From: Betaproteobacteria bacterium HGW-Betaproteobacteria-7
GTDB lineage: Bacteria > Pseudomonadota > Gammaproteobacteria > Burkholderiales > Rhodocyclaceae
Direction of reading: 5' to 3'
Assembly: GCA_002840765.1 (NCBI GenBank)
Contig: PHCE01000003.1
Location: forward strand, 149,743-213,742
Length of the DNA: 64,000 bases
Below the pieces are notes generated by a model that was not told the origin of the DNA, made no database searches, and saw only the letters and a program-made list of their open reading frames with translations. Numbering within the stretch: position 1 is the stretch's first letter; the number at the start of each line of letters is the position of its first letter. Shown here piece after piece: positions 9,265 to 14,261 of the stretch. The position numbers and the translations under genes are program-made.

Positions 9265-10845
9265 TTACTGATCGGCGAAGCGGCCCTTGAGGGCAAAGAT
9301 GCCCTGCGGACGCTTCTGGATGAAGATGATGATGGCGACGAGGATGGCGATCTTGGCGATCACCGCACCAGCCCAGCCTTCGAGGAGCTTCGAGAAGATG
9401 CCCAGGCCGAGTGCCGCCCAGACCGCGCCGGCCAGTTGCCCGACGCCGCCGACGACGACCACCATGAAGGAATCGACGATGTAGCCCTGGCCCATGTCCG
9501 GGCCGACGTTGGAAATCTGCGACAGCGCCACGCCGCCGAGTCCGGCGATGCCGGCGCCCAGCGCGAAGGCCATGGTGTCGATGCGCGAGGTCGGTACGCC
9601 GACGCAGCCGGCCATCGGGCGGTTCTGGGTGACGGCGCGGACGAACATGCCGAGCCGGGTCTTGTTCATCAGCAGCCAGACGAGCAGCAGCACGAACAGC
9701 GCGAAGCCGATGATGATCACCCGATTCCACGGCAGGATCAGGTTGGGCAGCAGTTCGACGCCGCCGGACATCCAGCCCGGGTTGGAGACTTCGACGTTCT
9801 GCGCGCCGAAGATCACTCGCGCCGCCTGGATCAGCACCAGCGACAGGCCCCAGGTGGCGAGCAGGGTTTCCAGCGTGCGCCCGTACAGCCAGCGGATCAC
9901 CGTGCGCTCCATCAGCACGCCGACCGCAGCGGCGGTGAAGAAGGCGACGGGAATGGCTGCCGGCAGGTACCAGTCGATCAGATCGGGGAAGTGCGTGCGG
10001 AACAGGCTCTGCATCACGTAGGCGGTGTAGGCGCCGACCATCAGCAATTCGCCGTGGGCCATGTTGATGATGCCCATGACGCCGTAGGTGATGGCCAGGC
10101 CGAGTGCGGCGAGTAGCAGGATGGAGCCGAGCGAGAGGCCGGAGAAGATGCCGGCCAAGGTCTCGCCCCAGGCCAGGCGGCGCTCGATTTCCTTGAGCGC
10201 GGTGACGGCGGCGTTGCGTACGCCATCATCGGCTTCCGTTTCCTTGTCGGTCAGCGGCAGCAGCAGGCTTTTGACCGCTGGCGAGGCGGTTTCCGCCAGT
10301 GCCTTGACGGCGGCCAGACGCACCGCCGGGTCGGCATCCTGCAGTGTCGCCTGGGCATGAGCCAATATCAGCAACGCCTTGATCTGCGCATCGCTTTCCT
10401 GTGCCTTGGCGCGGCCGAGAATCTCCGCCATCTCGGCGCCGACATTGCTCTGTAGTTCCTGAGCGGCGGCCAGGCGTACGGCGCTGTCCGGGTTGAACAG
10501 CTTGAGCGCCGCCAGGGCGTTGGCCAGTTCGCCGCGCAGGCGGTTGTTGACGGTGATCGATTCGGCGTCGTCCGGCATTGCTGCAGTCTCGCCGCTCAGC
10601 GCGTCGCGTGCCGTTTCGCCGTCGTAGATGAAGACCTTGTCGCCAGCCAGGAACAGGCTGCCCTCGGCCATCGCCTGGAGGATACGGATGGCTTCCGGAT
10701 CGGCCGTCTGCGCCAGCTGCTGAATGGCAGTGATCTTGTCGGTGTTGTCCTCGGCGGCGAGCTGCCGGACCAGCGCCGCGTCGGGGGCCGCCAGGGCGCC
10801 AAGGCTGCTGGCGCAGAGCAGGAGAGAGAGCAGGAATTTTTTCAT
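9265..10845 (-). CDS. urtB: Urea ABC transporter permease UrtB
   Basis: A LivH-like permease of 526 residues from ATG 10845 (MKKFLLSLLLCASSLGALA, a signal peptide). The track's start at 10944 is too far upstream. UrtB proteins carry a long periplasmic N-terminal domain absent from LivH. Here residues 20-230 contain two HEAT-like stretches (SAVRLAAAQELQS, PAVRLAAVKALAE). The permease core follows from about residue 240 (GSILLLAALGLAITYGVMGIINMAHGELLMVGAYTAYV) and includes NKTRLGMFVRAVTQNRPMAGCVGV. It is the first gene of urtBCDE. The substrate-binding gene urtA, normally adjacent upstream, is 26 kb away at 37.1-38.3 kb. Confidence 0.92.
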   Translation of the reverse strand: MKKFLLSLLLCASSLGALAAPDAALVRQLAAEDNTDKITAIQQLAQTADPEAIRILQAMAEGSLFLAGDKVFIYDGETARDALSGETAAMPDDAESITVNNRLRGELANALAALKLFNPDSAVRLAAAQELQSNVGAEMAEILGRAKAQESDAQIKALLILAHAQATLQDADPAVRLAAVKALAETASPAVKSLLLPLTDKETEADDGVRNAAVTALKEIERRLAWGETLAGIFSGLSLGSILLLAALGLAITYGVMGIINMAHGELLMVGAYTAYVMQSLFRTHFPDLIDWYLPAAIPVAFFTAAAVGVLMERTVIRWLYGRTLETLLATWGLSLVLIQAARVIFGAQNVEVSNPGWMSGGVELLPNLILPWNRVIIIGFALFVLLLVWLLMNKTRLGMFVRAVTQNRPMAGCVGVPTSRIDTMAFALGAGIAGLGGVALSQISNVGPDMGQGYIVDSFMVVVVGGVGQLAGAVWAALGLGIFSKLLEGWAGAVIAKIAILVAIIIFIQKRPQGIFALKGRFADQ

Positions 10846-10901
10846 GAGGTTCGATCCGCAATTTGTGCAGTGCAGCGACAGATTACGGTGCCCCCTTCGG
10901 G

Positions 10902-10957: not shown

Positions 10958-10988
10958 CTGTAAGAAATCTGCGGGGCCGGCGACTAAT
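10958..10988 (+). promoter_or_regulatory. Possible ECF-type promoter of the bufferin operon
   Basis: CTGTAAG at 10958-10964 and CGACTAAT at 10981-10988 are separated by 16 bases. They resemble the GTAA/CGA elements of ECF sigma factor promoters, which is fitting because bufferin-type operons are often under ECF control. It lies about 57 bases upstream of the precursor start. The match is by eye and unproven. Confidence 0.35.
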
Positions 10989-11045
10989 CCCCTGAGCAAA
11001 CGTTGAATGTGCTCACTGCATCCCAACTACCCACGGAGAATCATC

Positions 11046-11372
11046 ATGAAAAAGCAAAATCTAGTTTCCCTCGCCATCGGCTCCGCCTTCGCCGCCGTCG
11101 CCCTGAGCCCGATCGCCCATGCGGCCGATAATCCCTTCGCCGCCAAGCAGCTGTCGGCCGGCTACCAGCTGGCTCAGGCCGACAAGAAGATGGACGGCAA
11201 GTGCGGCGAGGCCAAGTGCGGTGCCGACAAGGCGAAGGGCGCCGCGATGGACAAGAAGGCTGACGGCAAGTGTGGCGAAGCCAAGTGCGGTGCCGACAAG
11301 GCGAAGGCCGCTCCGATGGACAAGAAGGCCGACGGCAAGTGCGGCGAAGCCAAGTGCGGGGCGAAGAAGTAA
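11046..11372 (+). CDS. Bufferin/HvfA-type RiPP precursor with three DGKCGEAKCG repeats
   Basis: A 108-residue secreted precursor from ATG 11046 (ribosome site GGAGA); the track's ATG at 11007 is too far upstream. Residues 1-26 are a Sec signal (LVSLAIGSAFAAVALSPIAHA). After a short linker, three near-identical 23-residue units follow (DGKCGEAKCGADKAK-x4-MDKKA; cores at about 50-59, 73-82 and 96-105), giving six Cys in regularly spaced CGEAKC pairs and a very Lys/Ala-rich chain. Such xGKCG motifs mark substrates of MNIO (DUF692) enzymes, which convert Cys to thiooxazole- or oxazolone-type groups that bind copper. The modifying enzyme and partner follow directly. The peptide is probably a periplasmic metal-buffering RiPP. 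The metal and the chemistry are inferred from the family. Confidence 0.85.
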   Translation: MKKQNLVSLAIGSAFAAVALSPIAHAADNPFAAKQLSAGYQLAQADKKMDGKCGEAKCGADKAKGAAMDKKADGKCGEAKCGADKAKAAPMDKKADGKCGEAKCGAKK

Positions 11373-11386
11373 GCTGAAAACCCCTG

Positions 11387-11414
11387 GGGGCGGCAACCAT
11401 TGCGCTGCCGCCCC
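11387..11414 (+). terminator. Intercistronic stem-loop between precursor and MNIO genes
   Basis: GGGGCGGCA and TGCCGCCCC form a perfect 9-bp GC-rich stem with a 10-base loop, followed by GTTGTT. It lies 15 bases after the precursor stop and ends 25 bases before the MNIO start. It probably attenuates transcription or stabilises the precursor mRNA, so that precursor outnumbers enzyme. Confidence 0.55.
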
Positions 11415-11438
11415 GTTGTTCCTGACCGGAGAACCCCG

Positions 11439-12302
11439 ATGACTGCATCCCTGATGCCCGCTCGCCTGCCCGGTGGTGCCGGCCTCGGCTTTCGCCGCGA
11501 ACTGATCGCCGAGCTGCAGGCCGGCGTGCCGGCCGGCATCGACTTTTTTGAACTGGCACCGGAAAACTGGGCCGGCATGGGCGGCCGCTCGGGACGCCAG
11601 CTGCGCGCCCTCACCGAACGCCATCCCTTTGTCTGCCACGGCCTGTCGCTATCGCTGGGCGGCCCGGCGCCGCTTGACGTGACGCTGCTGCGGCGCATCC
11701 GCCAGTTCATGGATGAGCACGGCATCGGCCTGTACACCGAGCATCTGTCCTGGTGCGCCGACGATAGTCATCTCTACGAACTGCTGCCGATTCCGTTCAG
11801 TGAGGCAGCGGTGCAGTGGACGGCCGGGCGTATCCGCCAGGCGCAGGACATGCTCGGTCGGCGTATCGGCATCGAGAACGCCTCCTACTACATCGCGCCG
11901 CCCGGCGCCGAGATGAGCGAGACGGAATTCATCTCGGCCATCGTCGCCGAGGCCGACTGCCTGCTGCATCTCGATGTGAACAACATTTATGTGAACAGCT
12001 GCAATTTCGCCTTCGATCCGCTGAGCTTCCTGCACGCGCTGCCGCTGGAGCGCACCTGCTATGTCCACGTTGCCGGCCATTACGTCGAGCCGGACGGCCT
12101 GCTGGTCGACACACACGGCGCCGAGGTCATCGATCCGGTATGGACGCTGCTCGCCGCCGCCTACGAGCGTATCGGTGGCGACGTGCCGACCTGCCTGGAG
12201 CGCGACTTCAATATTCCCGACCTGGCGCAACTCACTGCCGAAGTCGGCCAGATTGCCCGCCTGCAGGCAGCCGCGCCGCAGCGGCAAAGGCAGGTGGCGT
12301 GA
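11439..12302 (+). CDS. MNIO (DUF692) multinuclear iron oxidase, HvfB/BufB type
   Basis: 287 residues from ATG 11439 (ribosome site CCGGAGAA), the usual length for DUF692 enzymes. The TIM-barrel family shows its metal-ligand motifs: FELAPENW, FVCHGLSLSLGG, YTEHLSWC, IGIENASYY, LLHLDVNNIYVN, CYVHVAGHYVEPDGLLVDTHG and CLERDFNIPD, supplying His, Glu, Asp and Asn ligands for two or three irons. These enzymes oxidise cysteines in precursor peptides. The substrate here is the repeat peptide encoded just upstream. Its TGA overlaps the start of the DUF2063 partner (TGATG), indicating tight co-translation of a BufB-BufC complex. Confidence 0.92.
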   Translation: MTASLMPARLPGGAGLGFRRELIAELQAGVPAGIDFFELAPENWAGMGGRSGRQLRALTERHPFVCHGLSLSLGGPAPLDVTLLRRIRQFMDEHGIGLYTEHLSWCADDSHLYELLPIPFSEAAVQWTAGRIRQAQDMLGRRIGIENASYYIAPPGAEMSETEFISAIVAEADCLLHLDVNNIYVNSCNFAFDPLSFLHALPLERTCYVHVAGHYVEPDGLLVDTHGAEVIDPVWTLLAAAYERIGGDVPTCLERDFNIPDLAQLTAEVGQIARLQAAAPQRQRQVA

Positions 12303-13042
12303 TGCAGCCGGCTTTCCAGGATTTCCAGCGCGCCTTCGCCCGCCACCTGCGCGACCCGCATCATGTCGCCCGCCCGGCCGGGTTGCCGGAACGGCGCACG
12401 GCGGTCTATCGCGAGCTGGTCTTCAACAACCTTTGTGGCTTTGTCGACCGCTGCTTCCCGGTATGTCGCAGCCTGCTCGGCGAAACGCGCTGGCGCCGCC
12501 TGTGCCGGACTTTCTTTCGCGACTGGCCGCTGCATACGCCATGGTTCCGCGAGATCCCGCGCGAATTCGTCCGCTACCTGGCTGAAGCGCGGATCGCGCA
12601 GCCGCTGCCGGCGTGGTTCGCCGAGCTGGCGCATTACGAATGGGTCGAACTGGCAGTTGATATCAGTGATGCTCCAGTGCCCGCGGTCGATCCGGCCGGC
12701 GACCTGATGGCCCGACCGGTGGTCCTCAATCCGGCGCTGATGCATCTCGCCTGTGCCTGGCCGGTGCAGCGCATCGGACCCGATTACCGGCCACGCAAGC
12801 AGCAGCCGACGCAACTGCTGGTCTACCGGACGGCTGAGGGCGACGTGCGCTTCAGCGAGATCAATCCGGTCACCGCCCGCCTGCTGGCCATGCTGGCCGA
12901 AGGATCAACCAGCGGCCGTGAAGCCGTCGCCCGCCTGGCCGATGAACTGCAGCATACAGACCCCGAACGCCTGCAGGATCTCGGCCGCCAGCTACTGGCC
13001 GAGCTGCGGGAGCAGGGCGTCATTCTCGGAGTCACCCCATGA
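12302..13042 (+). CDS. DUF2063 precursor-recruiting partner, HvfC/BufC type
   Basis: 246 residues from ATG 12302, inside the longer track ORF 11816-13042. The DUF2063 N-terminal domain is evident (FQRAFARHLRDP, ERRTAVYRELVFNNLCGFVDRCFPVCRSLLG, WRRLCRTFFRDW, HTPWFREIPREFVRYL), then ELAHYEWVELAVDIS and a winged-helix-like C-terminal domain (INPVTARLLAMLAEGSTSGREAV). In MNIO systems this protein binds the precursor and presents it to the oxidase. It overlaps the MNIO gene by one base and the DoxX gene by four (ATGA). Confidence 0.9.
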   Translation: MQPAFQDFQRAFARHLRDPHHVARPAGLPERRTAVYRELVFNNLCGFVDRCFPVCRSLLGETRWRRLCRTFFRDWPLHTPWFREIPREFVRYLAEARIAQPLPAWFAELAHYEWVELAVDISDAPVPAVDPAGDLMARPVVLNPALMHLACAWPVQRIGPDYRPRKQQPTQLLVYRTAEGDVRFSEINPVTARLLAMLAEGSTSGREAVARLADELQHTDPERLQDLGRQLLAELREQGVILGVTP

Positions 13043-13593
13043 AACACAGCATCGAGCGACTGTTCTCCAGCCTAGACCTGCTCGGCCTGTGGCTGGGCCT
13101 GCTCAGCCTGCGCATCCTGCTCGGCTGGGATTATTTCGAAGCCGGCCTGGAAAAATTCCGCGGCGAGAACTGGTTCGCCGACATCGTCGAGCGCTTTCCC
13201 TTCCCGTTCAACCTTGTGCCGCCGGAGATCAGCTGGCAGATGGCCACCTGGTTCGAACTGATCGGTGGTGTGGCGCTGGTCCTCGGTCTGGCGACGCGCT
13301 TCTTCTCGGTGTCACTGATCATTCTGACGGTGGTCGCCATCGCCAGTGTGCACTGGCCGGAATCGTGGTCCGGCTTCGGCCAGCTGATGCAGGGTTACGT
13401 GTTCACCGACCAGGGCCAAGGCAACTTCAAGCTGCCGGTACTGTTCATCGGCATGCTGCTACCGCTGCTGCTGCTCGGTCCCGGGCGCCTGTCGCTCGAT
13501 GCGTGGCTACGCCGGACGTTCCTCGGCGCGGCCGACGCACCCGGGCTCGATCAGCCCGGCTTCTTCAGCAGATCAACGCGCTGCGGCGGATAG
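13039..13593 (+). CDS. DoxX-family membrane protein of the bufferin operon
   Basis: 184 residues with four membrane segments (LGLWLGLLSLRILLGWDYFEAGLEKF, WFELIGGVALVLGLATRFF, SLIILTVVAIASVHW, LFIGMLLPLLLLGPGRLSLD). The first has the DoxX pattern of a Gly/Arg-rich helix followed by GLEK. DoxX proteins commonly end MNIO operons, probably working with quinones or thiol redox at the membrane, though their role is unproven. It is coupled to the DUF2063 gene by an ATGA overlap. Its last 43 bases overlap the convergent methyltransferase gene. A stem (CCGGGCT-cgatc-AGCCCGG, 13541-13559) within that overlap may terminate both transcripts. Confidence 0.85.
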   Translation: MKHSIERLFSSLDLLGLWLGLLSLRILLGWDYFEAGLEKFRGENWFADIVERFPFPFNLVPPEISWQMATWFELIGGVALVLGLATRFFSVSLIILTVVAIASVHWPESWSGFGQLMQGYVFTDQGQGNFKLPVLFIGMLLPLLLLGPGRLSLDAWLRRTFLGAADAPGLDQPGFFSRSTRCGG

Positions 13594-14261
13594 AAGGTCG
13601 CGCCGGCCAGCGTCAGATGGGTCTCGAAACGGCGGCGGACTTCGTCATACAGTTCCGGCGACAGGCGGTGGTCGGTGTGGGTGACCTGAATCATCCGCTG
13701 GTCGAACTGCTCGAAGTTGTCGAAATGGCTGCGCGTCGAAAAGAACAGCTGGCGCTCCAGTTGTAGCAGGCCGCTGGCGACCACCGCGCCGACGGCGGCG
13801 AAAGCGGCTTCGCGCACGGTCTTTTCGTCGTGGAACAGGCGCATCACCTCGTTCAGGTCGCCGCTGAAGACCGGTTCGGAAATCCAGGCCAGACCACCCG
13901 GGCGCAGCACGCGGGCGATTTCACTCAAGGCCTGGTCCATCAGCTCGACCGGCACGTGATGCAGCGACTTGAACATGATCACGATATCGATGCTGGCATC
14001 GTCAAGCGGAATCGCCTCGGCACCGGCCTGGTGGAAATGTACGTTGGGCAGGTCGGTGATCTGCAGATTCTTCGCGTGCTGGATGCGGTCAACTTCCAGC
14101 GCCACCACCTCGCGCACTCGACCGCTCTGCGCCAGTGTGCGCGTCTTCTCGGCCTTGCCGCAGCCCAGCTCGAGCACCCGGGCGCCATCCAGCGGCAGTT
14201 CGCCGAGCATCAGCTGGACTTCATTGACGACGGTGGTCTGGGTCGGGTGGGATATTTGCAT
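13551..14261 (-). CDS. Class I SAM-dependent methyltransferase
   Basis: 236 residues with a Rossmann-type methyltransferase core: motif I VLELGCGKAEKTRTLA, motif II VVALEVDRIQ, motif IV IDIVIMFKSLHHVP and post-motif LRPGGLAWISEPVFSGDLNEVMRLFHDE. The substrate is not evident; the C-terminal part (FFSTRSHFDNFEQFDQRMIQVTHTDH) is not diagnostic. It is convergent with the DoxX gene, with which it overlaps by 43 bases. There is no reason to assign it to the RiPP pathway because it is on the opposite strand. Confidence 0.8.
   Translation of the reverse strand: MQISHPTQTTVVNEVQLMLGELPLDGARVLELGCGKAEKTRTLAQSGRVREVVALEVDRIQHAKNLQITDLPNVHFHQAGAEAIPLDDASIDIVIMFKSLHHVPVELMDQALSEIARVLRPGGLAWISEPVFSGDLNEVMRLFHDEKTVREAAFAAVGAVVASGLLQLERQLFFSTRSHFDNFEQFDQRMIQVTHTDHRLSPELYDEVRRRFETHLTLAGATFYPPQRVDLLKKPG

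Follow-up and report, generated by a model that had tools for sequence, protein, structure and literature searches.

An hvfABCX-type operon for a probable copper-binding thiooxazole peptide, with probable ECF control, in an Azonexus/Dechloromonas-group betaproteobacterium

In the 64,000-nucleotide stretch of betaproteobacterial DNA analysed here (the window), a small gene encoding three DGKCGEAKCG repeats stands ahead of genes for a multinuclear iron oxidase (MNIO) and two partner proteins, which raises the question of whether the locus represents a distinct subtype of RiPP operon, as an initial annotation had proposed, or belongs to a kind already characterised. Observed family membership, gene coupling, repeat layout and a conserved promoter-like element lead us to assign it, with a probability of about 0.93, to the hvfABCX (captophorin/oxazolin-type) operons of the Azonexus/Dechloromonas group, predicted to make a copper-binding thiooxazole peptide under probable ECF control. 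The operon is an ordinary member of a recently characterised kind that serves a secreted copper-binding peptide.

Gene layout and family assignment

The four coupled genes described initially are present as open reading frames on the plus strand: hvfA (11046..11372) encodes a RiPP precursor of 108 aa, hvfB (11439..12302) an MNIO (DUF692) RiPP maturase of 287 aa, hvfC (12302..13042) a DUF2063 and RRE partner protein of 246 aa, and hvfX (13039..13593) a DoxX-family membrane protein of 184 aa. A gap of 66 bases separates hvfA from hvfB, hvfB and hvfC overlap by 1 base, and hvfC and hvfX by 4 bases (ATGA). All four products exceeded curated NCBIfam cut-offs, as HvfA-family precursor, HvfB, HvfC and HvfX. 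Specifically, the hvfB product scored 399.4 bits against NF003818 (HvfB, cut-off 360) and 326.5 bits against PF05114, the hvfC product 297.3 bits against NF050145 (HvfC, cut-off 142) with Pfam matches to PF09836 and PF22106, and the hvfX product 141.7 bits against NF050144 (HvfX, cut-off 80) with a Pfam match to PF07681; Pfam thus agrees with the NCBIfam calls for these three proteins, whose annotated identities were borne out. The precursor matched NF050137 (KCGExKCG_twice) in three stretches at 66.4 bits against a cut-off of 19.5 and, because HvfB, HvfC and HvfX also exceed their cut-offs, is not a chance reading frame. Among solved structures, HvfB is nearest to 3BWW (E = 1e-70) and HvfC to 3DEE (E = 6e-18); a PDB search using the precursor sequence returned nothing significant. 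One MNIO gene and one precursor of HvfA type occur in the genome.

Translation of the precursor from 11046 is favoured by a better ribosome-binding site than that of an alternative in-frame start upstream at 11007 (121 aa) and by agreement with the start in relatives. Judged by eye, the protein begins with a Sec-type signal peptide that is conserved in relatives (MKKQ, a hydrophobic stretch and AHA, with cleavage between AHA and ADNPF), and it carries a conserved NPF-x4-L-x2-GYQ[LV]AQAD segment. The repeat scan confirmed three 23-residue repeats with six cysteines: DGKCGEAKCG units with two cysteines each, at approximately 11190..11219, 11259..11288 and 11328..11357 (plus strand), recur with an exact 69-nt (23-codon) period, copies two and three being 82% and 80% identical in DNA sequence to copy one. 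DGKCG and EAKCG therefore alternate, and all six precursor cysteines sit inside these units. Against the OxThioModRiPPHvfA equivalog NF050188 the precursor scored 49.3 bits, under the cut-off of 95, which places it outside the narrower H. influenzae-type HvfA group.

Relatives, repeat drift and alternative assignments

Scanning of named genomes yielded 80 loci, mainly from Azonexus, Dechloromonas and other Rhodocyclales/Burkholderiales. In every one of them (80/80) hvfC follows hvfB, so that the coupling in relatives, which the initial annotation had named as its own test, was upheld; hvfX was detected in 58/80, a minimum, given that the search used a single query and that some of the contigs are short. 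Of the 80 loci, 79 yielded a precursor that combines a signal peptide with the NPF-x4-L-x2-GYQ[LV]AQAD segment, in which P, F, L, G, Y and one A never vary and Q occurs in 78 precursors; the near-invariant GYQxAQAD part may be a site of enzyme recognition. The cysteine-bearing part varies: 71/79 precursors have 4 or 6 cysteines, double KCG units number from 0 to 4 per precursor (three in 20/79), and unit spacing grades continuously from 15 to 24 residues, mostly 20–21, with 23–24 in two loci (L084 and L102). This variation indicates that repeat number and spacing drift, and the window precursor lies within the range of its relatives on both counts. Lysine precedes the cysteine at 316/429 positions and serine at 86/429, so not every cysteine of the clade need be modified; DGKCG is the commonest pentamer. 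In L040, L043, L070, L089 and others, most Lys-Cys-Gly sites are swapped for Ser-Cys-Gly (DGSCG, DASCG). A genus survey recovered HvfB over its cut-off in 45/77 genomes and HvfC in 48/77, largely the same ones, and the operon is therefore common, not universal, in the genus.

The proposed subtype would be an HvfA-like precursor whose distinguishing marks are a 23-residue repeat, linkers rich in Lys and Ala, and a link to nitrogen genes. Its period does exceed the 17 residues of the first (long-repeat) type in a survey of the MNIO landscape (PMC12452194), and the operon adjoins urtB, its divergent neighbours matching the UrtB and UrtC models as the annotation of adjacent urea genes had it. The homology search that had been suggested for the repeat spacing nevertheless placed it on the continuous gradation described above, three units are shared by a quarter of the relatives, and HvfA of H. 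influenzae has the identical three-unit, six-cysteine plan (PMC13419390). Neither does the DGKCG motif mark a subtype, since FonBC, a characterised enzyme, processes a DGKCG version of its substrate to completion (PMC13097082). An urt neighbourhood recurs in only 2/80 loci (L034 and, partly, L048) and is without bearing on the function of the operon. On these locus and repeat counts the subtype and its urea linkage were rejected, and we consider them very unlikely. Assignment to the bufferins proper (DUF2282 or 6/12-Cys type, with BufB/BufC enzymes) draws on the same overall gene set and on a match of the MNIO to the BufB model, but that match, at 247.8 bits, is under the cut-off of 310, and the precursor matched the KCGExKCG model whereas a Pfam search with it matched no model, DUF2282 included. 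We consider this assignment very unlikely as well; of the annotated MNIO/bufferin-type RiPP, the HvfA-type identity stands, on family models and structural relatives, and the strict bufferin label falls.

The preferred hvfABCX reading agrees with several described systems. The gene set and the HvfB, HvfC and HvfX families are like those of hvfABCX/oxazolin in nontypeable Haemophilus influenzae (PMC13419390; PMC7907618), and in both precursors six cysteines are spread over three double KCG units, the window peptide being, like HvfA, a probable Sec substrate; the window has DGKCGEAKCG and Lys/Ala-rich linkers where H. influenzae HvfA has AEGKCGEGKCG, and, unlike H. influenzae-type HvfA, it stays under the equivalog cut-off. 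In the Buf_EGKCG/oxazolin family of the landscape survey, repeats vary in number and, as in the window, each holds two KCG motifs; the core genes (RiPP, MNIO, DUF2063, DoxX) are also the same (PMC12452194). Fontiphorin (FonABC, Fontimonas thermophila) and gonophorin (Neisseria gonorrhoeae) likewise pair an EGKCG-type Lys-Cys precursor with an MNIO and a PME1 partner; their 5-thiooxazole products bind copper, as is predicted for the window peptide, and the seven modified sites of FonA are arranged differently from the six cysteines here (PMC13097082).

Two features of the flanking genes were also observed. UrtB (9265-10857, minus strand) has an N-terminal extension of ~230 residues before its permease domain, outside the UrtB model match. 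The 3′ end of hvfX overlaps a convergent SAM-methyltransferase gene (13551-14261, minus strand) by 43 bases (13551-13593), and a convergent methyltransferase neighbour of hvfX is also found in L034.

A promoter-like element and a probable deletion scar

Comparison of the regions upstream of the precursors revealed a promoter-like element of ECF-sigma type at 10959..10985 (plus strand). It reads TGTAAG-N16-CGACT, then AAT, and its first base lies 87 bases before the start codon of hvfA. The general pattern TGTAA[GC]-N14-18-CG[AT]C[CT], which we take to be the form of an ECF-sigma promoter, lies 65–111 bases upstream of hvfA in 22/79 relatives, compared to a mean of 0.03 and a maximum of 1 in Markov-1 shuffles and none in a coding control; the strict pattern has a single exact match in the genome, the window element itself. 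A sigma-70 promoter scan found no sites. From these comparisons we infer that a sigma factor would bind at the element and, if the promoter is real, the 5′ end of the hvfA transcript would lie a few bases past CGACTAAT.

ECF sigma homologues occur in the fetched flanks of 53/80 loci (a few of the sigma matches being weak) and zf-HC2 anti-sigma homologues (Pfam) in those of 48/80. In the genome of the window the nearest such pair, at 50% identity, lies on another contig (G000:C30:87195-87740; L148, L151), where an ECF sigma gene precedes a small zf-HC2-like anti-sigma gene; upstream of the pair is an FAD-dependent disulphide-oxidoreductase-like gene. No copy of the promoter element was found in the region in front of this pair, and its sigma factor thus stays a putative regulator. 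In H. influenzae, RpoE2 regulates the hvf cluster under hypochlorite and is controlled by a 67-aa anti-sigma protein (PMC7907618). The window operon is likely controlled by such an ECF factor, making ECF-sigma control a probable common feature of the two systems, with the ECF gene not adjacent in the window.

In the nearest relative, L034 (HvfB 92%), and seven other loci (8/80), an AhpC/TSA-type redoxin gene, which the window lacks, lies between hvfA and hvfB. The encoded protein is roughly 177 aa long and weakly related to SelL, under the SelL model cut-off. Window hvfB starts in TGACCGGAGAACCCCGATGACTGCATCCCTGATGCC, which aligns to the start of the L034 redoxin gene (L034 3387-3991), and the stretch 11423..11466 (plus strand) is a probable deletion scar, in which hvfB would now start with the lost gene's ribosome-binding site and opening codons (MTASLMP). 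Local alignment of the scar to the L034 redoxin start scored 24 against a shuffle maximum of 14, with a shorter query redoxin-free relatives reached at most 11, against 23, and none of the other HvfB N-termini listed resembles that of the window. These scores are most simply explained by a deletion through which hvfB acquired the beginning of the redoxin gene.

The window and L034 group as sisters (100/98) in the HvfB tree, on which redoxin carriage takes four changes; the redoxin is thus a recurrent accessory. It is conceivable, if rather doubtful, that these loci constitute an operon variant recurring in several lineages, with an AhpC/TSA redoxin related to SelL working alongside HvfBC, and that the window derives from such an operon by loss of this gene; the redoxin of such a variant might, for example, keep precursor cysteines or thiooxazole thiols reduced. 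A literature search for MNIO enzymes with peroxiredoxins returned nothing relevant, and the landscape survey text makes no mention of peroxiredoxin, AhpC or redoxin (PMC12452194). The scar at hvfB could alternatively be taken to indicate a decaying operon in which loss of the redoxin may impair maturation, yet the four core reading frames are all intact, a 60% redoxin paralogue is encoded elsewhere in the genome, and the redoxin, being present in 8/80 loci only, is dispensable; decay accordingly has a very small probability.

Proposed chemistry and implications

The chemistry, metal and function of the window operon we infer from characterised homologues. The product of the H. influenzae operon is oxazolin, whose HvfA carries three AEGKCGEGKCG motifs; HvfBC converts the six HvfA cysteines to copper-binding 5-thiooxazoles, and the preferred substrate is full-length HvfA including the signal peptide (PMC13419390). 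The earlier oxazolone/thioamide structure has been reassigned to 5-thiooxazole, which characterised HvfBC, FonBC and a Neisseria enzyme install on such motifs (PMC13097082, PMC13419390). FonBC tolerates several substitutions at the residue before the cysteine, and when a shortened FonA was scanned with alanine, no residue ahead of the core proved essential by itself (PMC13097082). Site-3 residues N175, D242 and H244 are essential in H. influenzae HvfB (PMC13419390); by alignment through 3BWW their apparent counterparts are the conserved LDVNN (178-182) and VDTHG (223-227) of window HvfB. Given the chemistry of these homologues, the product of the window operon should carry as many as six 5-thiooxazoles. 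Of the annotated options for the six cysteines, thiooxazole should thus hold by homology, and oxazolone/thioamide gives way to the revised structure.

In the mechanism that we propose, an ECF sigma factor probably activates the operon in response to envelope, oxidative or metal stress, and HvfB–HvfC would bind the precursor ahead of export and convert the six cysteines of the three DGKCGEAKCG units to 5-thiooxazoles, with a predicted loss of about 4 H each (24 Da in total). The modified peptide would then be exported by Sec and bind copper in the periplasm, and HvfX (DoxX) probably has an assisting role in the membrane.

The details added here are the ECF-type promoter element and the redoxin gene of relatives together with the probable scar in the window. 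With this operon the copper-binding thiooxazole peptides gain an example from Azonexus/Dechloromonas, and its relatives document a quick drift of repeat number and Lys-Cys sites beside a nearly fixed NPF...GYQxAQAD segment. That segment offers a concrete target for studies of enzyme recognition, and the ECF-type promoter one for the stress regulation of such operons outside pathogens.
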